From Polytrichum commune (Eukaryota > Streptophyta > Polytrichopsida > Polytrichales > Polytrichaceae): a stretch of 64,000 bases of DNA. The position numbers and the translations under genes were made by a program. Under the pieces are notes generated by a model. The model ran no database searches and had not been told where the DNA came from. It worked only from the letters and a program-made list of their open reading frames with translations. Positions within the stretch are counted from its first letter, which is position 1. The number at the start of each line of letters is the position of its first letter. Positions 211-56,330 of the stretch are shown in pieces. The stretch lies in the NCBI GenBank assembly GCA_950295325.1, contig OX485807.1:16211001-16275000 (forward strand). The letters are read 5' to 3'.

Positions 211-790
211 GGGCCGGTTTACACCATGGACCATGAAGTCGGACCATGAAAGATGGCCTTTCTCTATGCTCTAACTTGATGGTCTAACTTCCATGGTCCA
301 ATTTCTTAAAAAATCCATTTACAAAGCCTTTGAGCCCCTCACTATGTGTAAACTGAATGTGGGCCAAGAGGAATGACCATGCACCAAAAAATGAATGTGC
401 TAATTTTTTCAATGTATGTCCCAAAAGGGTAGTTTGGGGGAAATAAATAAATAAATCAAGTTTGACCATTCTCTTGTCTTCTATTGTCTTCATTTTCTCT
501 TCTCGGGAAAAAATCATTCAAAATTTGTTATAACATATTTTCTCTGCCATGGGCTCTTTCCTTTTTCTATTGGAGCACATTTTTTGTCCCTCCCACCGCA
601 AAACCCGTTGGACCTTTTTAGCGAATAATGTAGGCTTTAACATATCTCTTTTGGGGGCCTCAAACTCCATGGTCACTTTGACATTTTTTCTTTGATGTAA
701 ACCGAAGTGATCTTGGGACGAGTTCAACAACCAATCACAAATTTTACAGGACCTTGGGACGACTTCATGGTCCATGGTTTAAACAACCCC
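211..790. mobile_element. Harbinger/Tourist-like MITE
   Basis: The ends are inverted copies. The left end starts GGGCCGGTTTACACCATGG; the right end, read inverted, starts GGGGTTGTTTAAACCATGG. Both continue with ACCATGAAGTCG. The flanking triplets are CTA on the left and TTA on the right, a loose fit to the TWA duplication of PIF/Harbinger elements. No transposase is encoded, and the ORFs inside are short and unrelated to known proteins. About 580 bp. Confidence 0.6.
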
Positions 791-3312
791 TTAGCAAGCA
801 TAACAACATGCGTTTTGACATTCCTAGGTAGAGACGACCGGAAGACACCCCTTCATGGATTATACTTCGACATTTGAGAGAGCCTCGGTAGTTTAGCAAA
901 TGGAGTTTCTTAGACTAATTAGTTAAAAATTGCAAGGTGTGATGTTCTAAAATCTATCACCTCGTTTGCATAAAGTTCAACACAAATTATATCAATGTAA
1001 CAAAATTATTTTCTTTAGTCAGTCATTCATAGCATTGTTGTAGCGAACAAATGGCATGATAACATCTCCCATGAGATCCATATTAATTACCATTATTGTG
1101 ACTCTATCTTCTTAGAGGTGGTAACTCACATATTCTTTGAATGAATGATTGCCCAACATGTATGGTGATATAATGCTAATGTTGTTAAGATTGAATCAAC
1201 GCTTCAATCTAGATTGGAAAGAGTTGTCATTACCTATATCATAATGATCTTCATCATTCTCGTAATATATTGTCATGTTATGCGTAATGATGCATGCATA
1301 CACGATGTCTACTTTGGAGAGGTATATTTGCAAGTACACTTTTGAGAAGTTGTAGAGTTGTATTTATTATGGAATTATAAATCTTAATAACTTTGAATAT
1401 AACAACTTCATTTTGGATATATTTCCTCATTTTGTAAACAATACTTGTCGTGACAACTTCCATTAATACATAATCTATTTTCATTAGTATTTGCATGTAT
1501 GAATAATCCTTATTAGATGACTTATGGTAAATATCATCATATCCTTAATCCCCAGTGATATTAAATATTGCATGGTTAACCTACAACCGGTGATCACAAA
1601 TAAATTATAAGTAATTGATTTATTGTTGTCTTTGTTTGGATACGATTACTGCAATGCAACTAGACAACGTTTTTCATGTCTTGTGCATGCAATCAATGAT
1701 TTTGAATATCCATGTCACTCCCACTCTTCATATAGAGTGATTTGCTTTATAATGTCATTGCCAGTTGACTTGTGTGTGTATTGTGCCTCAAAACACCTTT
1801 GGATAGTCATGCACCACCATAGTAGATTCCCAAACAATATTGGATGTCATGCAACCAAAATCCCATTATGCCTTTGTAGGTGTATCAAATAACATTACGT
1901 GCGTTGTTGTTGTTGTCTTTTGGAATGAAAATCAACCAATTGTACTTACACAATTCGTTTTTTGTTCAAAATAACCATTTGCATAACACATAGCATTGTG
2001 AGAGAGAAAAGTAATGTGTTTGCACATGCGGTATAGCTTGTGAAAATTGTTTGAATCAAAAGACACATATCTCGTAATATTAAAATTGTAAAACAAATCG
2101 TTGTAAATTAATGCAAATCTATATATTTTTTGGTTTTTTGTATGGTGGGCCATTGCCCCTATGTACGAGCCCATCAACTGAAGAATGTACTTGAACACAA
2201 ATTGGTTTCTTATCCTTATCATCCTCAAGAAATGATATTGAGCAATGTTGGATGGTGGGTACGTATGACACTCCAAACCATAAAGTAGAATTGAATGAAC
2301 GTTTTTTGAATATTTTTGTGTTGGTAACATGTCACGCATTTCTTTTTACATAACAAGTACAATTATCATACAATTCACATTTATGTTAACTTAAAAAATA
2401 AACTTCTAAAACTCAAAGGCGTATGTGGGAATTCGTGGGGCTTGTAGCCTAACATTGTTTGTTTTGTTTTAAGGGCCCAATATACATGCTTAGTCTCATT
2501 TGGCTCTATTTCAAGTGCTTTGTTGAATATGTTGGACCGAGTCTTTATAAGCAAGCGCCACATGGAAATACCTTAAACCCTGGGCCGTGAAATGAATCCA
2601 CATATATGATGTTGCCATCCATTCATGACCAACATCGTCACGAAACTTAATTTCAGGGGCAGTGCATAAGAACGCCTTGACAACCTCGCAGGAATGGGTG
2701 GAGGTCATTGTTTGAGCCCGGCCCAACCCAAGCCACTTGCGAATAACGTTTCAATAATAATTGCTGGACAACAACAAAATAAATGTTGGGACTGCCCACT
2801 AAGCCGAGATATTCCCATTCAACCCCTTTGTCGATACCTAGTGTGGAATGGACGCTATTTTGCCCCACATCCTTTGACTCCCAACATGTCTTCATTGAAC
2901 TAGCCAACGGACCAAGGGTCCCACAATGAGCATTTGTTTTTGTTTATCTACTTGGCCTCCATTTGGGGGTGGGGTCCGGGGTTTCTCCCCACCATCGTGG
3001 TGATCCCTTTTCTTAGCAATTTAAAAAGTATTAAAAAGTTGCAAGTAGATAGGGCCCTTGAACTTTGACCCATGCACATACTTATAACTCCATTCATTCA
3101 TGGTACTTGGTAGATAGCTCTTGCCCTCCTAATAAACACATCTAGTCTACTTCCTTTTACATCCTATCTCAACTTTAATTCGACGGAGACGTTTTGCATG
3201 ATGATACTAGAGTGTACAATTGGAGGGAACACATTCATATATTATATGACGCCGAAGCAGTAAAAAAATAAAAACAAAACCTTACAGCGGCCGGCCAAGT
3301 ACTGTAAGTAGT
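791..3312. other. AT-rich stretch without a recognisable gene
   Basis: Only short ORFs occur here. The longest, on the minus strand at 1932-2339 and 2511-2907, overlap in different frames and match no family I know. The patch 2600-2900 has somewhat higher GC and could be a decayed coding fragment, but no motif supports that. Confidence 0.5.
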
Positions 3313-26938: not shown

Positions 26939-28929
26939 TAATCCTTGGTAGTCACTTGAGATGAGTCAGCTAACTATGTATATAAGGGGGGGGGGTCGAG
27001 TTTTCATGTTGGATGGATGTGAGAGGTTATGTTTGTGTGCATAACATTATTCAACTGCTATAAGCTATTCCAATTTCTACTAATATCAACACACCGTTTC
27101 ACTCAAGTTTTTCAGCTTGAATATGCCAGTGTGGTGCTCTGATACAAGAATCATCAAAGTAGACTTTTGAATAGAATATGACTTATTCCCGGCGCCATCC
27201 ATCGTACTAACTGAGCTGAATTAATGTTATGTTCGTACTAATTGATGGCAGGATTAAGGTTCACCTCGAGTTTACTCAATTGAAGTGCATCTTATCCGCC
27301 ACATGATTACACTACACTTTCAGTTGTTAAGGTGAGGTAATGCGGTCTTATTAGACCCCTTATCTTAAGATATTAAACACAAGATTAGTACGAGACAATG
27401 AGCAGATCCAAGTTGAGATAATATTCATTTTCCTCAAAACCCTCCGAGCTCGTGTGCCTGAACATCTTACCTTCATAATTATCAAAGTGAACACTCCTTC
27501 ATAAACACATGTTTTCGGCCTTGGAATCCATCGTAACCTCACGCCACTCAACTACGATTTTCCCAATTAAGATAAGCAACCGTATTCGGCCCACTTTACT
27601 TTGAGTCCACGTGCTTGGATCAGTGCTTGGATGTGTGGACCCACAACCCCAGCTGGAATAGTGTACAATGGCTTGATGAAGGAAAGTGTCCGGCAAATCG
27701 CCCAGTACCACTTTCAAAACAAACGACACCAAATTCAAGGTACTTCGGAGAGTGTTGTTTTGCCAAAAGATATTGAACTCCGATCACGACTCATGCGACT
27801 TGCCGGCAAGCGGTCGTTGTTGAGAAAATTCGTTCGGGGTCGGTGAGACGTAAAGATCTTTCCGTATGTGGCCCTATTGTGGGCGCTTCCAACTTCACAC
27901 ACAATTTTGACAGTTGGATCGAATCCATAATTGTCTCATCCATAATTGTCTCATCCAGTTGGCGGTTGTAAAGAATCATATCACCAGGAGGAAACTTGTG
28001 TATTCACCGACCGTCCGTTGCGTGCTGTTCATTTGTACCTAATGGCGAGAAAATGCATGTTTTAAATCATTTTGGTTGTCAACTGGAGGTTTTTGGGTGT
28101 TTATTCTCCCAATCCTGTAATTGAAAAGCCTCCGGTTGATCAATCGAAAAGACTTCTTTATGCATTTTCTTGCCGTGAGTTGCAATGGATAAGTTGCAAC
28201 AAGTGGTTGGATTAGACAAGTTTTATCCTAGTGTGTAGACTGTCCTTTCAAAATTATAGATATGGAGTTCAATTGCAAACTCATAGGAGGTCAATGTGAA
28301 GATTCCCTTTCTTTTTGAGCGATTGCATAGACCCTTCAAAATGAGGGTAATGATTCAACCAAGAATGGTTGATAGATCTTGAGCGCATAGTCCAATCTCA
28401 TTGTGACATGTGTCTTTTTGGCATTCAGTCTCAAGTAGAGGACGTGCCATATACTACTCAAATGTAGATGTTTAATTAAGAAGAGTGACCACACATGGCC
28501 CACACACCTTATAACTTGTTACCTTAATCTTTTTTGTTTCGGTAGCCGATCGACGCAAAAATATGCATGGAAGAACATGAATGAACATGAAATTGACAAT
28601 CTCAATTCAATGTTAGAGCAATTCAAAACTCCAAATACTAGCCCACACTAAGAACATGTGGTGGTGTAGATATTGGTTAGATGTGGCTAGAGCTTCGCGG
28701 TGTCTAGGCTCAGGTGGGTGGCCCTAGTGGTCTTCAAAAACCACTTGAAAAAAAAGGTAAGGTGTTTCTTATTCCTTGGAGCTAAGAAAAGAAAAGAAAA
28801 AGTAACGCCCGCACATTGTACCGGCATGAATGCGAGCCCGTTGTCCAAATGCTAAGCACGGCGGGCCGTGTTGTAGCATGGGGAGTTATGCCTCCGTTAG
28901 GAGGTGGGCTCTGAAAAAAAGAGAAAGAG
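26939..28929. other. Unrecognised region with diverged duplicated blocks
   Basis: No clear gene. Block 27376-27500 resembles 49155-49300, and block 27840-28515 resembles 46290-46565. Both retain motifs such as CAATCTCATTG and AAGAGTGACCACA. Short ORFs on both strands (27360-27979) are partly shared with the copies, which suggests old coding DNA, but no domain can be named. A 13-bp direct repeat (CCATAATTGTCTC) stands in tandem at 27928. Confidence 0.4.
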
Positions 28930-28975
28930 AAAGTATAGTGTAAGGAGGCTAGTGTAAGGAGTGGGGGGAGAATAT

Positions 28976-29638
28976 TTAGGGGGGTGCTACGGGGTTTTGT
29001 TTGTTATCGAGTTTTCTTTTATTTAATACGAGGTATGTGAGATATTTGATGGCATTTTGATGTATGTTTTTCATGAGGATTTTGATATTGGATTTTGGGA
29101 TTTTGAGGTCTTCTAATTTTTTGATGGAGTGTTCGTGTATGGCACCTCTAACTCCTGTTGTGATGGTTATAAGAGGGTTTGTTTTCCATCCCTTGCTTTG
29201 TATAGTGCTGATCAATGGGTCGTATTTGGCATGTTTGTGTGTTATGGCTTGTTCTGGGAATCTGTCGTGACAGTATGTGAATTCAATGAATTGGATGGTT
29301 CGTGCGTGGGATGGTAGCATGGGTGTTGGGGTGTGGTTAGGGGCTCCTATGATACATAGAATGTCGGGTCTTAGTCTAGCGTGGCACTGACAACCGGTTT
29401 GTGGGCATAGGCATTCAATGAGCCATTCGGGGACTGTTTGTTCTTGCTTGTTGTTGTTGATATTACCTGCATTTGTTAGTGTGTAATATCTGGTGTGTTT
29501 GTTGGCTTGGAGTGTTTGGGTGATGAGATGTACTGCCTTGTTGTGGCGTGCTATTCTTAGGCCCTTTAAGTATGGGTGTTCGCACTTTGAGAGTAGGTGT
29601 GGCCATGTGTCCCTTTCATTTTTGCGGCATAATGTACA
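28976..29638 (-). other. ORF2 C-terminus: CCHC finger and REL-like endonuclease
   Basis: A C-x2-C-x9-H-x4-C finger (CTLC...HLLSKC) lies at 29582-29638. About 70 residues further on comes LRPDILCI (29371 onward), then IQFIEFTYCHD and KHAKYDPLI. RPD, a later (D/E)xT and K..KY is the pattern of the PD-(D/E)xK restriction-like endonuclease of R2-type and Dualen elements. The match is motif-level only, and the usual ExK lysine is Thr at the nearest position. The last part (GW..NPLITITTGVRGAI) continues the conserved block. This segment has no internal stop. Confidence 0.6.
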
Positions 29639-29939
29639 GTTTGGGTTTTGAAATTTGAGGGGCCAGAAAATATTCTTTCTATGGTTACCCATGTATTGGG
29701 CATATCGAAATTTTAAAGTTTGGGTGATTTGGGCGTCTGTTATTTTATTGTTTTTCCAAAAGTGGTTGGAGAGTTTGTGGTTTATTTGGTCGTTGGAGAG
29801 CCATTTGTCTACATATGGGTGTTTATGTTGGGCCAACCTAATTTCTTGTTTTTCGTGTGTTTTTGTGATGAATGTGTGCAAGTTTTGGATTGCCCCATTT
29901 CGTGTGGCTGTGGGACAACTTGTTAGCCAATATGGTGTA

Positions 29940-30403
29940 GCGTGTGCGATGTGTATATGGGGTGTGGGAGTGGGTTTTTCTATATTTGTGCCTTCGTTGG
30001 CTAGCGCATCGGCTATTTCATTTCCTTTGATGCCCGTGTGGGCACGTACTTTATGTATATGTACTAGGTGTGGTGTTAGGTAAATTTGGTGTATTATGGC
30101 GGCTATGAGGATTTTGTCCGGGTGGTGGTGTTGTGAGGTTGGGTGTTGTATATGATTACTAAGTAGATATATGCTATTAAGGCTATCTGTAAAGATGTGT
30201 GTTTCAACTTTTGTGACTTGAATGGTTTTGACTGCTATGAGTATAGCATTTAATTATGCTCTAAGTATGTTTTGATATCCTGGTAGTCGTTCTGCTATAC
30301 GGATGTTTGTGTTGGGGCTATATACTCCTGAACATGCGATGTCACCCTCTATTTGACCTTCGGAGTTCTTAGTTGGTGGAATAAATGAGCCGTCTGTGTA
30401 CAT
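29940..30403 (-). other. ORF2 RNase H domain, stop at the catalytic Glu position
   Basis: The sequence reads YTDGSF (first catalytic Asp, near 30394), then NILRA-stop-LNAI, then IFTDSLNSI (third acidic residue), and RAHTGIKGNEIADALAN with the His and final Asp. In RNase H the second catalytic residue is the Glu of the A-E-L-x-A motif. That exact codon is TAA here (30254-30256). The domain is in frame with the C-terminal segment ending at 28976. Confidence 0.8.
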
Positions 30404-30656
30404 GCATTGTTGTGGATGGAATTTGGGGGGGGGGGTGTTGGTGGTAGTATTTAATGGGGAGGTTTGATTGGGGGATTGTTGGTGGGGGAGGGATGTTTTT
30501 TATGGGGGCGTTTTTCCATATGTTCGAGAATTTGATGTGGTAATTTGGCGTTGTGGGTTTGATTGGGAATGTGTCTATGGGTGCGTTGATGGTATGTTCT
30601 AGTACTTGTGCGAGGTCTTGTGGGGTTTTTAGGCTTGGTGTGAGGTTGGCATGGTT

Positions 30657-31298
30657 ATGTATACATAGTATTGTTGTGAGCGAGGGTTCTACGTATTGGT
30701 AATATTTTGGCCATTCCGGCGTAGGGTTATATAGTATGGTATGCGGAGGGATGGTTGCGAGGGTATGTATGTCTCCACTTGTGGTAAGTGGGATTTGTTG
30801 TGTGGTCCAGTCGTTATGGTTGATTATGAGTATGGTGATCGTGTTTGAGTCTTCTTTGGCCGCCATTCTAGCCCAGTGGATGGCTTCAATGGTTGTTTTA
30901 TGGTCTGTGGGGTAGGCTAGACCAATGCCTTTCCATCTAGATATTTGTGCGTGTCCTAGGGAGCCGAATATTATGTCTCGGTTATGGGGTGAGTGATATT
31001 GTGTGAGTTGGGTGGGACATGTGAGTGGGGATGAGTAGTAGGAGTGCGTGATTTTGAGGGAGTTTATTAATGTTGTGATAATTGTCGGGTGCATTGTATG
31101 GTGCATGTTTTGGGGTTGTATGTTTTTTGCCTTTCTTTTGGGGAGTATGGTTATGTATCTTTGTATTAGCCAAAGTATTTCAGTTTCAAAGTTTTGTGGT
31201 GGGGGTTGGAGGGCGTTTGTAGTTTGTGAGAAGTGGTGGTAAGAGAATTGGTTCCATAGCCATTGTAGCTTTTCTGTAGTGATGGTGGCCATGTAGTT
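30657..31298 (-). other. ORF2 segment between RT and RNase H, possible methyltransferase-like domain
   Basis: About 210 conserved-looking residues run from NYMATITTEKLQWL, through YYSSPLTCPTQL, NRDIIFGSLGH and RWKGIGLAYPTDH, to AIHWARMAAKED and ILIINHNDW. From memory, algal retroelement proteins have a similar block (SPLT..., RD.vFGa, RW.G...NPEY, AvrWA) related to PCIF1/N6-adenine methyltransferases. Here the NPEY/NPPF-like position reads AYP, so the catalytic Asn would be missing. This is an inference from motif spacing, not an alignment; it could be a thumb or linker domain instead. Confidence 0.35.
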
Positions 31299-31465
31299 TC
31301 CTTTTTGGTCATGTATGTTGGCTTCGGAGTTTTGTATTTGGATGGTTGGTTGGTTTACTTGAATGTCTTTATCTGGGTTGCATTCTTGTATGGATAATTT
31401 TAGGTTGGTGATGTGAAGGGGGGGTGTATGAATTTGTTGTCTTTTGATTGTATGTGATTGAGGCA

Positions 31466-33700
31466 ATTAGCGTATGTGTGGGTGGCTAATAGTTCGGCTT
31501 GCTTTGTGTGATATTGTGTAATACATAGTATATTATATTCTAGAAATATATTATCTGGGTGTAGTAGTTCTACCTCACTTCTCCATTGTTGTGTGGTGCC
31601 TTGTGGGGCTTGCCATTGGCAAAGGTAGTTCGTCCTTATTGCTTGTGCACCCCATTTGTCTTTTTTGGTGGAGGTCTTTTCTTTTATTATTGTTTGGATT
31701 GCTTGTCCTAGGGGGGGGGGGGGATATTTACCATGACCTCACTTTGTGGTAGTGTTTGTTGTATTGGGTTTGTAGAGTTTGTGGGTGGGGGGGGGGGGAA
31801 ATATTATTGTTGCTTGTTGGAGAGCCTCTTTGATGGTTTTGGGTATGTGTTTGTATGTGGATTGAAATTCCTTCGGGGTTAGTATGGCTTTGGTAGTGGG
31901 GTTTTGGATTTGTGTTAGTGTGGTAATGCCGTATATGTATAATTTGTCTAGATATTTTTGGGTCTTGGCTTTGGATATATCCGTTAGGGTGTTATAATTT
32001 GGGTTGGTTTTCCAAGTTCTTTCTAGTGATGTTTCTTTGATGGGGAATGTTTGGCTTGTGGAGTGGACGTGGATTTCGTATTCTCTTTCAAGGAGAAAGA
32101 GTGTTCGGGCTATAGGGGAACGGACACATGCTTGTTGTTTGAATTTGGGGAGGTATCGGGCCCCACCATACTTGGCCGCTATATGTTTGGTTAGTCCTTG
32201 GTATATAATGCCTAATTGACCCGGGTCATTAAGTGCTTGGATTAGTTGTTGTCCTATGCATCGGATGTAGTCGGGTAATAGGGAGGTGACGTTAATGCCA
32301 AAACTCTCTTGTGGGAAGTGGGTGAGAATGTTGGCCGAGCTTTTAGGAATGTTGCAAATTTCTTTGGTTAATTTGCTAATGATTTTGTCTAATTTTTTAA
32401 TATCCGGTTTGGAGAATGGGACGGCGTAGTAGGCGTATACTATTCACGGTTTAATGACTGTATTCAAGATTTTGATTTTTTGTGTGAGGCTAGCCGGTGA
32501 GGTAGTTAGGAGTTGGCTTTGTTGTTTGACTTTCTTCATCGTTATTTCTTTTTGTAGGTTCCATTTGAGGGATGGTGTGAGGTTTATTCCTAAATACGTA
32601 TATGGTTCGTTTTGGGTGAGAATGGGGAAATTTTGAGAGTTGTATGTGATATGTTGTGATTGGATGTATGCTTTGAAAGTAGAGGGTTTTAGTTTAGATT
32701 TATTAGGGCATCCGGTAATGGCACATTTTGATAGGTTAAGGTCCATGTGGGACCATTTTGCGAATTTTTGGAGTTTTGTCTCTTGTGGTTGAATGTGTAG
32801 TATGTTGTCCGTTATAATAGCTAGGTCATCCGCATATGCGGTTATGGTGTATGTGGCAGAGGACGTGTTGAAATGATAATCTATGTTATCTTTCTCGAGC
32901 CATCTTAGTAGTGGTTCGAGAAAAATGATAAAAAGATATGGGCTAAGGGTGTCCCCTTGTATGGTCCCGCGGCTTATTTCCATTGGGGGCATCGTGCCAA
33001 AATGACTCCCGGTGAAGGATGTGGTGGAGTTGGTGTAAATATTGCCTACGATTTCTACCGCGTCTAATGGGTAGCCTAGGTCCTCCATTATGGCTAGGAG
33101 TCTTGCGTGGTCTATAGAGCCGAAGGCATTTCTAAAGTCTATATAAGTTAACTATATATCTTTTGTGGTTAGTCTTGCGTCTTCTAAGGTTGCTATAATC
33201 GTTTGAATTTGTCTCGAGGTATTTCGTTGTGGTCGAAAGCCTTCTTGGCTAAAATGTAGTAATCTATGTTTTTCTTCGTAGCTTGTTAGGAGTGATGTTA
33301 GTGTACTAGTATATAGTTTATAGATTGTATTAGCTAGGGATATTGGTCTATAGTTGGATATGTGGGTGGGATTGTCTTTTTTGTGTAATAAGATGGTCTT
33401 ACTATGTTTCCAATATTGCGGGATCGTTCTTTGTTTGTAGCAATGTTTGAAAAATAGGTATAGGAGGTCTTGCCATTGTATTGGTAGTGTTTTAATGATA
33501 TCATTTGGGATATTGTCTGGGCCCGGGGTTTTCGCTTTTGTTAGGCTTTTGACACAACAATCATAGACTTCTCTAGTGAATTGATTACTTATTTGTGTGT
33601 TGGGGTTGCCTCGTTTTCCTAGAATGATTACTTGATGTGAATGCCACGGGTATTTTCGTACTGCACATATGCACGTATTAGGGTGGTCCGTGGTGTCCTT
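31466..33700 (-). other. ORF2 reverse transcriptase domain and thumb
   Basis: Motifs run in order: KTPGPDNIPNDI, HKKDNP...SNYRPISLANTIYKL, SQEGFRPQRNT, then motif A in YIDFRNAFGSIDHA (near 33120), SRGTIQGDTLSPYLF, and the catalytic YADD at 32825-32836. Both catalytic Asp positions are intact. TAG at 33152 falls just before motif A and TGA at 32444 just after the fingers/palm. The frame is the same on both sides, and past 32444 it stays open to about 31790 (KPDIKKLDK..., AAKYGGARYLPKF). Confidence 0.9.
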
Positions 33701-34485
33701 ACATAGGGGGGTTTGTCTTTGGAATGAAGTTTGTTGAGTATGGTATATCTCCCTAGCTATCTCGGTGGGTTTGGTGAGGATTTGACCTTGGGGATTTTGT
33801 ATACAATCGAGTGTTTTGGTGGTTGTCGGGTGGAATATTTTTTTGTGGATGATTTTGGGTTTAGTATTAAGCAGGATTCTATATTTGTTAATGGCTGCTT
33901 TGCAATTAAGTGAGGTTTGTTTGGTTATGATTTTGTGGGCTTCTGTCTTCGTTTGTTTTCCTATGGTGGCTAGCTGTGCAATCCATGTGTGTATTTCTGT
34001 GGGATGGGGGGTAGTGGTGGAATATTGGGGTTTCGTATTAGCTGAAGGTTTGTGATATCTGAGTGGTTGTGTAGTTGTATATAGGGGTAGTGACATGCAG
34101 CTCTTATGGCTTTTCGGGTGTTGTGGTATATTTTCAGTTGGTGCTTCCATTTATTCTGTTGGGTCCTGGGGAGGAATCCTCCTTGGGGTTTTATCATATT
34201 TGGTAGTGGTGGAGTGGGGTGTGACATGCATGTCTGCTCTATGCATTGACTAAGGGAGTTGGTAATTTCTTGGAGTTTGAGTTGTGCGTCTTCCCATTGC
34301 GTGAGCGTAAGATGTTCATGTTGGAGTATTTGTGTAAGGTTTTCTATTGCTATATTTTGTTTTCCTATAAAGGTTGTTTGTAGGTTTTGAAGGTTGTTAA
34401 GGGGTATAGGGTATGTGATACGTGGGGTGTTTATGGGGGTGGTGGTTTCTTTTATGACTATTATATTGGGGGCTAGCTGTAGTTG

Positions 34486-35239
34486 GACCGGGTAGTGATC
34501 CGAGTTTTGGTTTAAGTTGGTTAACGTATGGCTATGAAGATTGGTGATATTGGGGTCGTTGGTGTAGAAGCCATCTATATGGCTAGTTGCTGTGTAGTTG
34601 TGACCTCCTTGCCTTGTGAAGTTTACTGGGTTATGGAGTACTTTGAGTCTGTTGTTTTGTATGAAGCATGCCCATTCTTGGTCATCCGTATTAGGTGGGG
34701 TTGTAGTGTTATTATTGTTTCTTCCTTGTAGTAATATATCACGGTTAAAGTCTCCGGCTAATATAATGGTGTATTTGGGGTGTTTTATTATGATATTTTG
34801 AATTTGGTTTTGGATTTCGGGTATTAGGTGCTCATCTTCTAAGTGTGATGGCATGTACATGTTTAGGATGATTAATGGTGTTAGTGGTTTGTTGTTGATT
34901 ATTATGGCTTGTAGGTAGGGTGAGATTGAGCTTGGGGTTGGTATTTTGGTGATGTTTTCGTTTGTGTATATTGCTATGGGTATCATGACGAGGATGCCAC
35001 CTCTAGTTTTATGTGGGGCCCGCATATTTATTATGTTTTTGTGGTGTGGTGTTGGAGTTGTTGTATTTAATTTTGTATTCGTTTAGTTGGCAGTCTATGT
35101 ATGATGTGGATTGTGTTTTTGGGATTTTGGTTTCTTGGATGAGTATAATATGGGGATTGTTGTGTAGTGTTTGGGTGAGGTCTTGGATACCGGGTAGGCT
35201 AGAGTTAATACATCCGGTGTTCCAAGTGATTATTTTCAA
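34486..35239 (-). other. ORF2 APE endonuclease domain
   Basis: It starts with KIITWNTGCINS (Asn site), followed by IILIQETKIP (catalytic Glu), then after a frameshift at 35010-35025 TRGGILVMIP, AGDFNRD (34744-34755), HIDGFYTND and NSDHYPVQL (34486-34503). These are the conserved motifs of the exonuclease III/APE fold, and every catalytic residue is present. There is no ATG at 35239 (TTG), consistent with an internal domain of a longer ORF2. Confidence 0.9.
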
Positions 35240-35859
35240 GGTTTGAGTGGTTGGGTTGTTTTGCCTATTGTGGGTGTGTGGGGTATCATAGTTAGGTCTA
35301 TGTGTGTTAGGTTGGTATCCTGTTATTTTTTGGGTGCATTTAGTTAGTTATTGTATTATTTTGTTTGGGAGGTGGTGTATTTCATTTTGTAGGGTTGCTG
35401 CGGTTATGGGTACTCCCTTAGCGATTTTGTCGTTGATGATGGAGTAAGCTTGTGGTATAGTGGTTATTGTTGAAGTATGTATGTTAGTTTTGTGGGATGT
35501 GTGTGGGTGCGTATTAATTGGCATTTTTTGTAGTCGTCTTAGGATGGTCAAGTATCTTGGGTCAAGTTTGTTAGTCATTTTTTTATTACATATTTGTGGT
35601 AGTGGGCTATATGTTATGATAAGGGCATATATTTGGTGGTGGGTGGGGTAGTTTGAGAGGAGTGAGGAGTGGTTTTTTAGGTGTGTTAATTTTTGGGAGT
35701 CGGGGGTGTTTTGGGGGTTGGGGGTGTTGTTGTTTAGGTGGGTTCAAATAGCTTTTCAAGGTGGGCGTATTGAGGTTTGAGTTATAGGGTTTTTGGTATA
35801 AAGTATTGTTTTTGTCTTTGTGTGAATTCTTTGGGAAGGTTTTTGAGGATGGTTGAGAT

Positions 35860-35919
35860 CGGCCCTGGGTTTAGTTCAATGTCTCCGTGTAAGAGTATGA
35901 GTGTAGAGTTATTCCAAGT
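35860..35919 (-). other. 2A-like ribosome-skipping peptide
   Basis: The frame reads STLILLHGDIELNPGP, matching the 2A consensus D(V/I)ExNPG|P exactly, with the leucine-rich upstream part typical of 2A-like motifs in LINE ORF2 proteins. Skipping would occur between Gly and the final Pro (35860-35862). It lies about 280 codons into ORF2, upstream of the APE domain, so it would release the hydrophobic leader from the enzyme portion. Confidence 0.85.
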
Positions 35920-36705
35920 GTAGTATGCTATGGTTTTAATTTTTGGTTTTTTGTGGTGAGTGTGTGTTATGTAGTAGATATTGCCTATATATATTGATAT
36001 ATTGATGGGGATGATTGTGTGGGTTGTGTTGTTGTGGTTTGTGTATGGATTGTTGTTTATGTGGTATTGGTGGTTATATGTGTGTGAGGTAGTCTTTCTA
36101 TGGTTACATTGGTGGGTGTTGTCTATATGTGGTGTATATATTGTGGTGTTGTGTGGTCTATGGGAGTAATGGAGATTATAGATGTATGCGGTGGGTATCA
36201 TAAGTAACACCATGGGGGTGTTATTTATTGGTCTATTATTTATTTTGTTAGTTGGCTTGGGGGGAAGTATGTTGTTTTGTGGTTGTGTGGGGGTGGGTAT
36301 GTGGGTATGTGGGTATGTGGGTATGTGGGTGAGGAGTGTATATGTGATGCATAGTAGTATTAGTGTGTATTTTGAGGGGTTTCTTTTGTGTAGTTTTAGT
36401 GTGATTTTTGTGTGAGGGTTGATGTGTGTGAGGTAGACGTAGGCCATGTATATGAGAAACAATATTTTCTCTTTATTAGGTAAGAAAAACACAATACAAC
36501 ATATAAGGGAGAGGGTCCATTGATGATATCCTATGTGGCTACTATCCATTAAGATTGTTGGGTCCTTGATGGTGTATTCTTGGGTTGCCGTGGAAGCCCG
36601 GAGGAGCTTGGAGTGGGAGTGGGGAAGCGGTCGTATTGAGGCCGTGCGGTATCGGAGGTGGGGTGGTCCTTTGAAAAATTTCCGGTGCGGCGTTGGAGAG
36701 GCCAT
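35863..36705 (-). other. ORF2 leader: hydrophobic, possibly membrane-spanning
   Basis: This segment of 281 open codons has several hydrophobic stretches, such as WTLSLICCIVFFLP, ILFLIYMAYVYL, YTLILLCITYTLL and PMVLLMIPTAYIYNL, separated by His/Asn/Thr/Pro-rich linkers. It contains no stop, although the rest of ORF2 is broken. No homologous family is recognised. Because it ends at the 2A motif, it may be made as a separate polypeptide. Confidence 0.5.
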
Positions 36706-36715
36706 TCACTATGCC

Positions 36716-38934
36716 TTACATCCGCAAGTTGGATTGTTGAAATTCGTGGGCAATCGTGCCGAAGAGCGCTTGAAGGTTGGCGGTGTGATGTGTGATTGTG
36801 GCCGTAGTTGCCTCGAAACGGCGATCCGTGTGGTTGTTGATGGTGGTGGTGAGTGTGCCAAACTTTTCTTCCAACTTGTCTTCGAGCTCCTTCATTGTTT
36901 TGGTGAGGTATTTTTCGGTGAGGGGCGGGTTGGAGCTCGTGGCGTTGCTCATAGCTTGAATTTTATCGGCTATCGCCTCTCTTACGGGTGTTTGGGCCAA
37001 TCGGATCGCCGTCTTATTGGGGTCCGTGCCGTCTATGCTCCCGCGGTGTGGGATGAAGTCTACACGACGTCCGAGAATGTAGGTGGATTTGCGGAGCCAC
37101 TCCGTGTAAACCGCAGCGTTGAGGCATTGGATATGACACCAACCCGCTTGCTTGTCGGTGTGGGGTTGGTTGTTGTTGCCAAAGCTAATGCCGACTATGT
37201 TGTCCGCGCCAAATGTTTGCTTGATGACCCTTGTGATGGTAGTTTGTGTCTCACGTTGAGGGAGGTTGTTGGCGACGAGTGTGGTACTTATGCGGAGTTC
37301 CGATGGGTTGCTAGCTCCTCGGTCGCAGGTAATGCTAACTTGTAACTTCTCATGGTTGTAGGTGAGTCCATCTTTGAGCACGGTGTCCCTAGCCTCCTCC
37401 GTGGTGAGAGTGAGAAAAACATAGTTTTTACCTACCTCCGGTTTGGTAAAGCTCATGAATTCATGTTGTTTCCCTATGTAGTAGCTCTCATGTACTAATT
37501 TTTCAAAAATATTGAATGCACTCTCATGACGGAGGGTTTCTCCTTTGAGATGGAGACGAAGATTGCTAGCCTTTGTGACTAATTCGTATCATTTTTCTAC
37601 CTTGCCTATTACTTTCTCACCATCCTCCATTTCCATGACAAATGTCCGGTTGCCTCTAAGTAGTGTTATGCCATCTCTCTTTAGGTGTAATAAGTGCATC
37701 TTTATGAAGCCCGCCCAGTTCTTGGTGACGGCATTGGTTCCTATATCAAGAGGGTTGGAGTATGTGTTACCAAGGGGGATGTCCATTTGTTGAAGCCTCT
37801 CCAAGCATGCCCTCTTTGCCTCTTGCCGATTGATGCCTTTGAAGCCGTGATCGAAGCGTATGGTAATGTTGAATCCTTCGGAGAGGCCGGTGGTTGGGTC
37901 GATCTTCTCTTGTCGATCGTGGGATTTGGGTGAAGTGGAGGTGGTGCCCCGGGACCGCATCCGGCCGTTCGCTTGGGTAGTACATTTGAGGTACTCGGGG
38001 GACAGCTCTCCTTAGGGTGCGGAAGTCGAGTATCTCCCTTGAGGGGGTTCCGTTCTTGGAAAACTCTTCATTGGTGCGTGACTCACTTATAATTTCGGCC
38101 CCTCTATGTAGCGCCATGGCCTCATGAATAGGGAATCCTAGCCACATGTGCGAGACGATGTCAATGCTCGGAATTGCCACCTTGCTTCGTGTGCTTTGTT
38201 GCTTACTAGTGCTGGAGTTGAATGTGTGTTCGCCCATCTCACTCTTTCTCCTCTTGGCGCTTTGTGTGTCCGTAGTTTTGGCATTGTGTATGGATGTCGG
38301 GGGGTCCTATCGGCTAAATTGATGGCTTCTAGACGTGACATCGGTTTGGCGGCTTGATTGGGAGTGGCCGCGTACTCATCCCTTGATGTTGAAATTTGAA
38401 GTGAGCTCCCTCCATGCTCGGGGGAGACGTTTTCTAATTGCATGTCGATGTCGTAGTCTTGAGATGGGGGGGCCTTCTCCTTCATATGGATTGGTTGGCT
38501 TGTTTGTTGGTCATTGGTCTTCTCCTCTTTGTCTTCACTGTAGCTTTCTATGAGGGCTCTCCGTCGGGTCCCGCTTCTTGTCTTCATACCTTCGGCTCCC
38601 CTAGTCCCGGCTCCCATTGGGCCTTCCAGTTTGCTGCCGTTGCCGCTAGCCGTTCGCCTGTCGTCCTTCCCTCGGCCCCGGCGCTCCAGCACTCGACCCC
38701 TCCCCTGCCGCCTCTTTCGATGCCTTCGCTCATGCCTTCGAAGTCGTCGCTCCGTCCATTGCCGATGTTGGTCACCATGTCTGCGCTCCTGCCGTCCTGC
38801 TTGTCTCGGTTGCCTGTGCCTCTGTGCCTCCGTTGCAGTCCAGTGTTGGTGCTTGGTCCTCCTCTCAGTCTGGTCTCAGATTCTAGTCCGGCGCTCTCTG
38901 CTAGGAATTTGTGAGGTTCTGTGGTGGTAGCCAT
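36716..38934 (-). pseudogene. LINE ORF1, RRM-type, interrupted
   Basis: Most likely start is the ATG at 38934 (MATTTEPHKFLAESAG), in the exact Kozak context GCCACCATGG. The coding frame then shifts near 38690, 38140-38240 and 37960, and is stopped by TGA at 37589; from there it is open to the TAA at 36716-36718. In the last 246 codons, STTLVANNLP...VIKQTFGADNIVGISFG...WCHIQCLNAAVY looks like an RRM. A second RRM-like stretch precedes it (NYVFLTLTTEEARDTV). The C-terminus (KTMKELEDKLEEKFG onward) is a probable coiled coil. This matches RRM-type LINE ORF1 proteins, which bind the element RNA as multimers. The N-terminal half is Ser/Thr/charged and probably disordered. Confidence 0.7.
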
Positions 38935-54237: not shown

Positions 54238-55326
54238 CTACGGTTTTGAGCAACTGAGGATGTCGAGCAACGCCAGTCGGCTCGCAATCAACATCCGGAA
54301 AAGCTCATTCACTTGAACCTCCAGAGGAGCCAAACCTAAACCAAGATCTGTAGAATGTTTCCGCAGCGCTTCAATCTCCATCTTAAGCTCCTCCAAGCTG
54401 TCGCGTGACAAAGGAAAACATTTCTCGTTCACATGGTGGTCAAGCAGATCATACAACCTTCGGACGGAAATATCCACGCTGTCGAGCTCGCGGAGAAGAG
54501 CAATCGACCCTTTGTTCTTCCTCTTGTCAGTCTCCTCCTTCACCTTCTGTTGTAAAGCATGCAGCGGTGCTGACCACTTATAATGGCTAGCCACATGGAG
54601 GTTCGCGAGCGGCCGCCTCGGTTTACACGCCAACGCAGTGACTAGCAATCCGCAAAGGAAAATTGTTGTAACTTTCGCGCCGTAGATTGCATTCAAGAAA
54701 CCGTTTCCCTTCAGAGCTTCCAACCCCTTGGGGTTGACAAGCTTCTCCCCCATGGTGCGCAACATGGAGCTGCAATTCTCCAGCTTCGATTTGGGAAACC
54801 CTTGCCTGTACTCTGTGTCCTTCTTCTTGATGGCTTCCTTGCACTCGAACAGAGCATTCCTCGCCCGCACGTACTTCCCCTCCCCAGAAGTCTCCTTGTT
54901 GTCCAAATTGTGAAGAGCTAGCTGCACAAGCATCTGGTAATGCTCGACCTCACTAATCCCCTCTCTCAAGACGTTGCACACATCCAGGAGCTTCGCACTG
55001 TCATCCAGGTATTCATCCACCCACTTGTCGTCCCGCTGGTGAGACAGCGACAACTGCGACTCAGGAATAAGGGCTTCCACATTCGCGTGCGTTGCGAGAA
55101 CCACCGACATCGCTTGGAGTAGCCAGTCGATGCTAAGGAAGCCTTTCTGCTCCCCTGCAGGCTTTAGTGTCTCCAACCTCTCCTTCAACCGACTCTCAAA
55201 CTCTTGTAGCACCGGGTGCCTCTTCGAAGATGCAATGTTCGCTGCAGTGATGCGACTCAGTGAGAAATGCGAGTGTAGCGCTGCTCCTATGCTCGAAAAG
55301 AACGTCAATCCCCCTTGGCTCGCCAT
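54238..55326 (-). CDS. BYPASS1 (BPS1)-like protein
   Basis: An intact, intronless ORF of 362 codons ending in TAG at 54238-54240. The open frame extends seven codons upstream, but only to a GTG; the ATG at 55326 sits in a good context (ggggATGG) and gives MASQGGLTFF. Family hallmarks: an N-terminal segment, then WLLQAMSVVLATHANVEALI, DDKWVDEYLDDSAKLLDVCNVLREGISEVE and LVQLALHNLD (about residues 65-142). A hydrophobic stretch IFLCGLLVTALA lies around residue 225-235. The C-terminal end APLEVQVNELFRMLIASRLALLDIL is typical. Length fits the family (about 350 residues). BPS1 proteins in Arabidopsis limit a root-derived mobile signal affecting shoot growth; biochemical function is not settled, so only family membership is claimed. 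A weak coiled coil (residues 255-330) is likely. It sits in a GC-rich island, unlike the rest of the window, consistent with an expressed gene. Confidence 0.92.
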   Translation of the reverse strand: MASQGGLTFFSSIGAALHSHFSLSRITAANIASSKRHPVLQEFESRLKERLETLKPAGEQKGFLSIDWLLQAMSVVLATHANVEALIPESQLSLSHQRDDKWVDEYLDDSAKLLDVCNVLREGISEVEHYQMLVQLALHNLDNKETSGEGKYVRARNALFECKEAIKKKDTEYRQGFPKSKLENCSSMLRTMGEKLVNPKGLEALKGNGFLNAIYGAKVTTIFLCGLLVTALACKPRRPLANLHVASHYKWSAPLHALQQKVKEETDKRKNKGSIALLRELDSVDISVRRLYDLLDHHVNEKCFPLSRDSLEELKMEIEALRKHSTDLGLGLAPLEVQVNELFRMLIASRLALLDILSCSKP

Positions 55327-56330
55327 CCCCCTACCCCTCTCAAGCACCTTTCCAAATCACCTAAAAACGCACTTCACAAGCGCGTACGTGTATGGAAGAA
55401 GAGATTCAATTGAAACTCGAAGCTGTCAAATCTAGTCCAACTCCTAATTCCAAATTAAGTAGTGACAAATATGCGTCTCGTCTCAATGTAGAAGTAATTG
55501 GAGATCGTCGAAATAGGCATCTGCCTAACGGCAAGCCCTCCCAAACACAATTCCTTATTCCTCCACAGCTAAGCACAAACGCCACAACAGCCGATCAGCA
55601 ACCCCAAGCCTGCCTCAGAAGACCAAAACACAACAAAGCCGCACTCAAAACGAAACCGCCACCGCCACCGCAACCGCAACCGCAACCGCAACACCCGTTG
55701 TCAAACCGAAAAGCGGCCGCACTCTTTACTCCACTCCACTCCACTCTCCAAACCGCGCTTCCAGACGCTTCCAGAAGCTTCTGCAACCTCCTGCTGATCC
55801 CAAATTCTCTTAACGGTCAGACCAACAGCCAAAACGAATCTCTCAAACTCAACAAGTCAGCCGGCCGAAGACTTATGAGGTCACCCGAACGATACGGAAC
55901 CCCAACAGGCGTGTGATGAGGTTACGCGGAGTGGGAAGTGCGCAACACGGGGTGTGATAAATTCTGTTCCGAAAGGGTGACTGGGTAGAGAGCGAAGACA
56001 GAGAGGAGGAGACGATCGAGGAAGGAGCCCGTCTGTCCGTCCGTCTGTCTGTCTATCTCTGTGTCTCTGTAGAAGAGGGCGTGTGACTAGGAGAGGGGAG
56101 GAGAGGAGAGAAGGGAGCCTGGCTATGGCGGCTATGGCCGAGGGGGTTTCATAGACGAAGCTGGGCGAAGAGTCTTCGACGCGGAGTAGCCTGGGTCACT
56201 CGACTGCTAGACACAGACACAGAGCATTAGTGAACTGCGTTCACACGGGGCCCAAAAATATCGGGATTCCTTGCATACGTTGGGGGTGGGGGGGGGGGCG
56301 GCCGCTAGGGCGCTCATCATAGGGCACCTA
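55327..56330 (-). promoter_or_regulatory. GC-rich 5' UTR/promoter region of the BPS1-like gene
   Basis: High GC and CpG content continue about 1 kb upstream of the start and stop near 56330. It includes a (CCGCAA)n-like repeat at 55668-55695 and a (TCTG)n run at 56036-56053, which are typical of plant leaders. The 174-codon + ORF (55392-55916) and its antisense partner are probably by-products. No clear TATA box was located on the minus strand. Confidence 0.5.

Follow-up and report, generated by a model that had tools for sequence, protein, structure and literature searches.

A constrained 2A-like motif in the ORF2 of a LINE family of the moss Polytrichum commune, with a predicted StopGo role

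Described 2A sequences and the motif in the window

A 2A peptide should cause the ribosome to split one protein into two and is most familiar from viruses of animals; that LINEs can carry 2A sequences is already known. The 2A of the trypanosome element L1Tc was reportedly described by Heras in 2006, and 2As in LINEs of multicellular organisms, these being animal elements, are said to have been described by Odon in 2013. Such APE-type elements share with the family analyzed here a D(V/I)ExNPGP core in frame with the element proteins. Besides its land-plant host, features that may set our family apart are the combination of an APE endonuclease with a putative R2-type nuclease and a PCIF1-like domain, a long and variable leader, the presence in some ORFs of two to four motifs, and subfamilies with H, Q or K at motif position 14 (p14). 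Dualen and RandI elements resemble the family in harboring an APE, a putative CCHC/PD-(D/E)XK-like C-terminal nuclease and an RNase H (PMC4640811 and PMC3636483, in the parts available); they are likened here by domain content rather than by an RT tree, and the 2A and the PCIF1-like domain distinguish our elements from them. As in the sea urchin NLR 2A signals (PMC4981915, in part), a hydrophobic N-terminal part is predicted ahead of a separating 2A, but here the leader is longer (165–252 residues in most measured copies), belongs to a retrotransposon and is hydrophobic in some subfamilies. Finally, viral multi-2A polyproteins carry serial 2As in one frame, about 50–150 residues apart according to the available portion of PMC11512398, compared with about 33–267 residues in our family, where the carrier is a retrotransposon of the host genome and the members of an array resemble different subfamilies.

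The window, the whole stretch of 64,000 nucleotides that was analyzed, lies on contig C5 of a genome of 407.8 Mb in 64 contigs, and the family data all come from this one plant genome. The 20-residue peptide TWNNSTLILLHGDIELNPGP occupies positions 35919–35860 of the minus strand exactly and includes the 2A-like core LLHGDIELNPGP, which is in frame in the N-terminal part of the ORF2 of a LINE whose endonuclease is encoded further downstream (Table 1). The first stop downstream of the motif comes after 25 residues, and the APE, the reverse transcriptase (RT) and the later parts are scattered over several frames or interrupted by stops; the window copy is thus broken. The initial annotation had described a canonical 2A-like peptide within a plant LINE, in an otherwise broken ORF2. 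Both statements are borne out, the motif of the window being an exact match and family-wide in occurrence, and they can be refined: the motif lies on the minus strand, recurs throughout the family, is under strong constraint and sometimes occurs in arrays.

Table 1. Coordinates of the LINE copy and its parts within the window
Feature	Coordinates	Strand	Basis or remark
2A-like core LLHGDIELNPGP	35860..35895	-	Strict pattern match; break predicted between Gly and last Pro
29-residue 2A tract with upstream context PKIKTIAYYTWNNSTLILLHGDIELNPGP	35860..35946	-	Column conservation, 25 cluster representatives
AUGNNUAG junction, candidate ORF2 ATG overlapped by ORF1 stop TAG in another frame	36542..36549	-	Candidate start ATG at 36549
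ORF2 leader, starting MDSSHIGYHQWTLSLICCIVFFL, hydrophobic N-terminus, fast evolving	35887..36549	-	Identity step versus L010 near 36.05–36.3 kb
Open frame with leader and 2A, 307 codons	35782..36705	-	
APE endonuclease region, PF03372 / PF14529, two frames	33970..35347	-	
Reverse transcriptase region, PF00078, interrupted	32444..34150	-	Relative L008 best matches R2 RT structures
PCIF1-like domain PF12237	30369..31466	-	E 4e-8
RNase H end PF00075 and C-terminal region with CX2C..HX4C, RHN and RPD...EFTY	28976..30253	-	Putative R2-type endonuclease
ORF1 region, several frames	36542..38565	-	Homologous to L010 and L011
Element, minimum extent	28788..38565	-	Homology to other copies

Two further observations concern the surroundings of the motif. 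Between 28001 and 40000, the plus strand shows a GC skew of +0.30 to +0.47 and an AT skew of −0.30 to −0.36 over the element, so that the coding strand of the element is poor in G and T. Elsewhere in the window, at 54238–55356 of the minus strand, lies an open frame of 372 codons, putatively BPS1/ROH1-like, a land-plant family.

Family-wide occurrence and constraint

A degenerate DNA pattern for the strict core, D(V/I)ExNPGP, matched 273 places in the whole genome compared with 0 for the reversed control, and the wider GD(V/I)xxNPGP pattern matched 432 compared with 0, which excludes chance. The family matches are spread over C1 to C7, the seven largest of the contigs encountered, in a genome that contains LEAFY genes, and this speaks against contamination. 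The probability that the motif reflects either chance or contamination is negligible. The LEAFY loci number three; their best match is PDB chain 4bhk, while at two residues they are instead like chain 2vy1. We take these chains to be the Physcomitrium and the Arabidopsis protein, respectively, and the two positions are presumably specificity-determining. In addition, four equal-scoring 2A-region matches are located on one strand of C6 at a spacing of about 0.2 Mb (29913364, 30096257, 30293278 and 30496082) and are perhaps part of a large tandem or segmental repeat.

The family was also surveyed without use of the motif, with the APE domain of locus L008, a relative with a long open ORF2, as the query. 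At least 148 matches are present in the genome, a lower bound because scoring was limited to the best candidates. From these, 60 places were picked by hand, all with the APE start present, and 1,400 nt upstream of each was fetched; 34 are 56–98% identical to the query and 26 are 45–49% identical. A recognisable motif, defined as six or more of the eight constrained residues or an NPGP, is found upstream of the APE in 53 of the 60. At the expected place, 30 of the 60 have a canonical core, 15 an NPGP with H (seven), Q (six) or K (two) at p14, and eight a degenerate motif; of the seven scored as having none, one contains a decayed motif and the other six could not be credibly aligned with the 2A region. 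The APE-proximal motif starts 624–678 nt before the APE start. In 31 of the 53 cases motif and APE share one frame with no stop between them; in the remaining 22 a frame shift or an interruption intervenes, as decay of the copies would lead one to expect. The check proposed in the initial annotation, a search for the same motif upstream of the APE in related elements, thus finds it across this genome, and the outcome named there as refuting, its absence from such elements, is not what is seen. The reading of the window motif as a lone survivor is rejected on the same survey.

Conservation of the motif was examined in 25 representatives less than 70% alike; these had been preselected to retain seven or more of the eight core residues, any of E, H, Q and K being accepted at p14, so that the apparent invariance is inflated. 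In this set p11, p12 and p16 are invariant, p13, p17, p18 and p19 nearly so, and p15 is free, while p14 is E in 12, H in seven, Q in four and K in two. All 25 preselected sequences have G at p11 and L or I at p7. Over the seven fixed core codons, pN/pS is 0.06 for close pairs (58), 0.03 for mid pairs (284) and 0.03 for far pairs (1,211), with pS reaching 0.74. The pairs, drawn without L023, L026 and L029, are not independent, and the pN figures are understated because the count was limited to loci with at least seven of eight permissive core residues. The corresponding ratios are 0.35, 0.52 and 0.94 for the leader 20–40 codons before the motif and 0.13, 0.29 and 0.52 for the 20 codons past it.

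The frame of the motif has also been preserved. Over the 720 nt before the 2A, the 52 sampled loci with good cores contain 146 in-frame stops compared with 723 and 617 in the other two frames, and 25 of these loci have no stop in frame, compared with 0 and 0 out of frame. When the window and eight copies picked for their long frames are included, the counts become 152 compared with 843 and 744, and the stop-free loci 33, 0 and 0 of 61. This deficit of in-frame stops indicates that the leader has been kept open together with the 2A. Collectively, the stop counts, the pN/pS ratios and the 31 of 53 motifs still in frame with the APE show that the motif is held in frame and constrained at the protein level.

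The general 2A core (D/G/C/N)(V/I)ExNPGP is matched exactly in the window, and the family shows an L-rich hexamer context in which D at p12 is preceded by G at p11. The viral rules given in the available text of PMC12846837 include such a hexamer, the pairing of p11 G and p12 D, activity of H at p14 and partial activity of E14Q. The substitution pattern of the family, in which p14 tolerates H and Q and p15 is free, agrees with these viral StopGo rules residue by residue. For K at p14 we found no report of activity (H, Q or K is present at p14 in 15 of the 60 sampled places). Given these sequence features, we consider it probable that the motif serves a large plant LINE family as its 2A/StopGo recoding site, present in the window in a dead copy, and that it would detach a disposable leader from the enzyme. 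A conserved peptide that acts otherwise, for example in a protein contact or as a protease site, could look like a 2A. Such a role would account for the good conservation of p23, p24 and p28, just past the motif, and for the low pN/pS of the next 20 codons (0.13 in close pairs). However, the substitutions fit StopGo residue by residue, and the motif follows unrelated leaders and occurs in arrays, which makes a role of this other kind very improbable.

Leaders, motif arrays and the start of ORF2

The sequence upstream of the 2A has been replaced between copies that are otherwise similar. The window copy shares 92–98% identity with L010 between about 36,050 and 29,025, a figure that falls to about 65–83% upstream. 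Of the pairs formed by loci with 700 nt or more upstream, 80 show at least 85% identity past the 2A; in 58 of these, one or more 100-nt blocks located 200–700 nt upstream of it fall below 65%. Because 5′-truncated copies with unrelated flanking DNA could mimic replacement, the comparison was repeated on 33 loci with no stop in 240 leader codons. Replacement persists in these loci, with a leader block below 65% in 22 of 32 pairs that are at least 85% alike after the 2A, although here too the pairs lack independence and trace back to a small number of exchanges. For reversed leaders the background identity is 0.45, with a maximum of 0.51 (66 pairs). For some pairs of the window-like group (L010 or L039 with L041), the change falls within 100–200 nt of the 2A. 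Copies of the L005-like group remain alike over the final 300 nt ahead of the 2A and begin to differ about 300 nt upstream, so that the variable part of this group may precede the true start. Different leaders end in the same kind of L-rich GDIxxNPGP tract, and the leader differences between otherwise similar copies probably arise through recombination.

From the start to the first 2A, the leader measures 165 residues in L009, 169 in L020, 214 in L042, 221 in the window, 236 in L010, 252 in L073 and 551 in L006. A hydrophobic stretch follows the candidate start in ten loci (L006, L008–L011, L016, L020, L037, L042 and L073), with a 13-residue hydropathy maximum of 1.3–2.7. This stretch would fit dual targeting, in which skipping is deliberately incomplete and the hydrophobic N-terminus acts as a signal or anchor, so that unskipped protein would enter the endoplasmic reticulum and the product of skipping would end up in the cytosol or nucleus. 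The N-terminal 2A signal sequences of sea urchin NLR proteins provide a precedent (PMC4981915, in the portion available). The leader N-terminus, however, is weakly conserved (pN/pS of 0.76 over the first 28 codons), and the leaders of L062, L063 and L064 contain no hydrophobic stretch (19-residue maximum of 0.4–0.7). We regard dual targeting as rather unlikely; for subfamilies with a hydrophobic N-terminus it is compatible with the preferred reading, a StopGo site that separates enzyme from leader.

Two or more motifs are present in nine of the 60 sampled loci. Of the ten neighboring motif pairs in these nine loci, eight are in frame and seven have no stop between them. The most extensive array is that of L073, where a single ORF of 841 codons (466–2988, plus strand) holds four motifs, one with R replacing the G of p11, and these motifs resemble different subfamilies. 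Three motifs share an open frame in L074, and two are present in each of L009, L012 and L075. Across the family, serial motifs are spaced about 33–267 residues apart. A related arrangement is seen in L023, where two NPGP tracts lie 30 nt apart at about 743–800 of the oriented sequence (GDIQPNPGPISHITKNPGPP), perhaps two array members fused by a deletion.

Not every match to the core is active, and some 2As, viral ones among them, stop translation without going on to a detectable restart (PMC11512398, in part). The motif might therefore mostly end translation, which would limit the amount of enzyme in place of giving two products in equal measure, and arrays of two to four motifs would compound this effect. 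Against such a role, the frame stays open for roughly 2,050–2,340 codons beyond the motif in L005 and L007–L009, and the L-rich context resembles that of an efficient viral class (PMC12846837, in part); we judge it quite improbable.

The start of ORF2 was located with the N-terminal peptide of the leader, which identified nine loci. ATGNNTAG is present in eight of the nine, the exception being L021, although this is not an independent count since the searched peptide itself favors these letters. ORF1 is open up to the ATGNNTAG stop in six loci (the window, L009–L012 and L020), whereas L028 has an earlier stop and L039 too little sequence. A second scan, which required a stop at the junction, added L006, L008, L016, L037, L042 and L073; its matches in L023, L024, L063, L068 and L072 are located elsewhere. 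In the window the stop of ORF1 overlaps the start of ORF2 at AUGNNUAG (36549–36542), and in this one subfamily group the ORF2 AUG lies within a few nucleotides of the ORF1 stop. No stop–start junction was seen in the L005-like group, for which a Met that recurs about 92 residues ahead of the 2A (L005, L048, L052, L057, L058, L063 and L072) is the candidate start. Coupled termination–reinitiation is described for AUG-n-UGA sites with 2, 5, 8 or 14 nt, and the LINE SART1 is given as an example of translational coupling (PMC5972666, in the part available). As at these sites, the start codon here precedes the stop of the preceding ORF by a few nucleotides; in contrast to them, the stop is UAG and the activity is a predicted one. 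The overlap at AUGNNUAG suggests coupled reinitiation in the subfamily group of the window.

Combining these features, we infer the following course of translation. In the window's subfamily group, ORF2 would probably be started by coupled termination–reinitiation at AUGNNUAG. The ribosome would then synthesize the leader, with its hydrophobic N-terminus and, in most measurable copies, 165–252 residues to the first 2A. At NPG/P the leader would be released without formation of a peptide bond, and translation would resume to produce an APE-RT-PCIF1-like-RNase H-C-terminal protein with an N-terminal proline. The sequence of the leader would matter little, and the purpose of the 2A would be to keep the enzyme independent of whichever leader precedes it.

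Element type and implications

The element is organized as an ORF1 region followed by APE, RT, PCIF1-like domain, RNase H and, at the C terminus, a CCHC-RHN-RPD region. Measured between stops, long open ORF2 frames span 2,625 codons in L005, 2,919 in L007, at least 2,866 in L006 (where the frame reaches the end of the fetched piece), 2,422 in L008 and 2,409 in L009, the last with an early end in the C-terminal region. In L008 the RT region is short of about 50 residues and no Met precedes the 2A; an ORF2 started from the AUGNNUAG of this locus stops after 216 codons. The L005 subfamily includes three copies that are 99.2–99.3% identical over 4.6 kb and retain the 2A, which suggests that this subfamily was recently active.

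In the window and L008, an APE (PF03372/PF14529) lies upstream of a non-LTR RT (PF00078) in ORF2; L005 has no Pfam APE match, yet aligns to the APE of L008 at 48%. Compared with PDB chains, the L008 RT best matches those named R2 (E values of 6e-28, 8e-23 and 1e-22), while the R2Bm chain (7e-17) and LINE-1 chains (8e-17) score similarly. At the C terminus, the CX2C...HX4C, RHN and PD residues are invariant in the alignments, an arrangement we take to be that of R2-type endonucleases. A profile of this region matches chain 8gh6, presumably R2Bm, weakly (E values of 0.65 and 0.81) over the RHN region. In the window, the CX2C..HX4C-RHN-RPD..EFTY region spans 28976–29797 of the minus strand. This region is possibly an R2-type endonuclease, which would make the element a dual-endonuclease one.

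PCIF1 belongs to a family of cap m6Am methyltransferases. For the PCIF1-like domain, Pfam gives 150 scored matches among 698 candidates in the genome, with E values of 3e-10 in L005 and 4.7e-6, below the curated cut-off, in L008. A profile of the domain has PCIF1 as its top PDB match (E value of 0.03), and numerous LINE copies carry the domain between their RT and RNase H. Methyltransferase activity is doubtful, since what we take to be the catalytic motif, NPPF, appears to be replaced by A(H/F/Y)P in the copies. Single-sequence structure predictions of the window's C-terminal and PCIF1-like regions each gave a mean pLDDT of 36.

This domain content (APE, RT, PCIF1-like, RNase H and CCHC-RHN-RPD) makes it likely, though not proven, that the host element resembles Dualen or RandI, the elements in which an APE and such a nuclease occur together (PMC4640811 and PMC3636483, in part), more than plant L1. 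It also places plant L1 as the host element in doubt; the PDB scores by themselves do not decide the matter. The open-licence PMC literature that we searched yielded no plant LINE with a 2A and no account of natural 2A use in plants, which within these bounds upholds the initial statement that no well-described plant LINE with a 2A is known. Titles and abstracts in it pointed to no LINE with a PCIF1 domain, and titles to no Dualen in mosses; both words do occur in PMC3636483. New relative to that literature are the host, a land plant, and the Dualen-like nature of the element, together with its arrays, p14 subfamilies and variable leaders.

For a broader reading of the family we see the balance of probability as even. 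Here a Dualen-like lineage of land-plant LINEs would use StopGo as a modular joint: leaders and 5′ halves would be swapped upstream of a constrained 2A, giving rise to arrays of up to four sites per ORF; whole subfamilies would rely on the rare p14 residues H or Q; StopGo would be coupled to stop–start reinitiation; and a relative of the PCIF1 cap methyltransferase would be carried aboard. If true, this reading would represent a natural, genome-scale use of StopGo in plants. A 2026 survey reports, in its available part, no evidence that plant viruses use StopGo and notes that StopGo works in engineered plants (PMC12846837), and the hundreds of constrained copies in this plant genome suggest a native encounter of plants with StopGo. 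Together, the p14 variants and the arrays would be a ready natural panel of plant-adapted 2A sequences, and the variability of the leaders hints at a reason for selfish elements to retain a 2A, in that their enzyme would become insensitive to the translation that precedes it.
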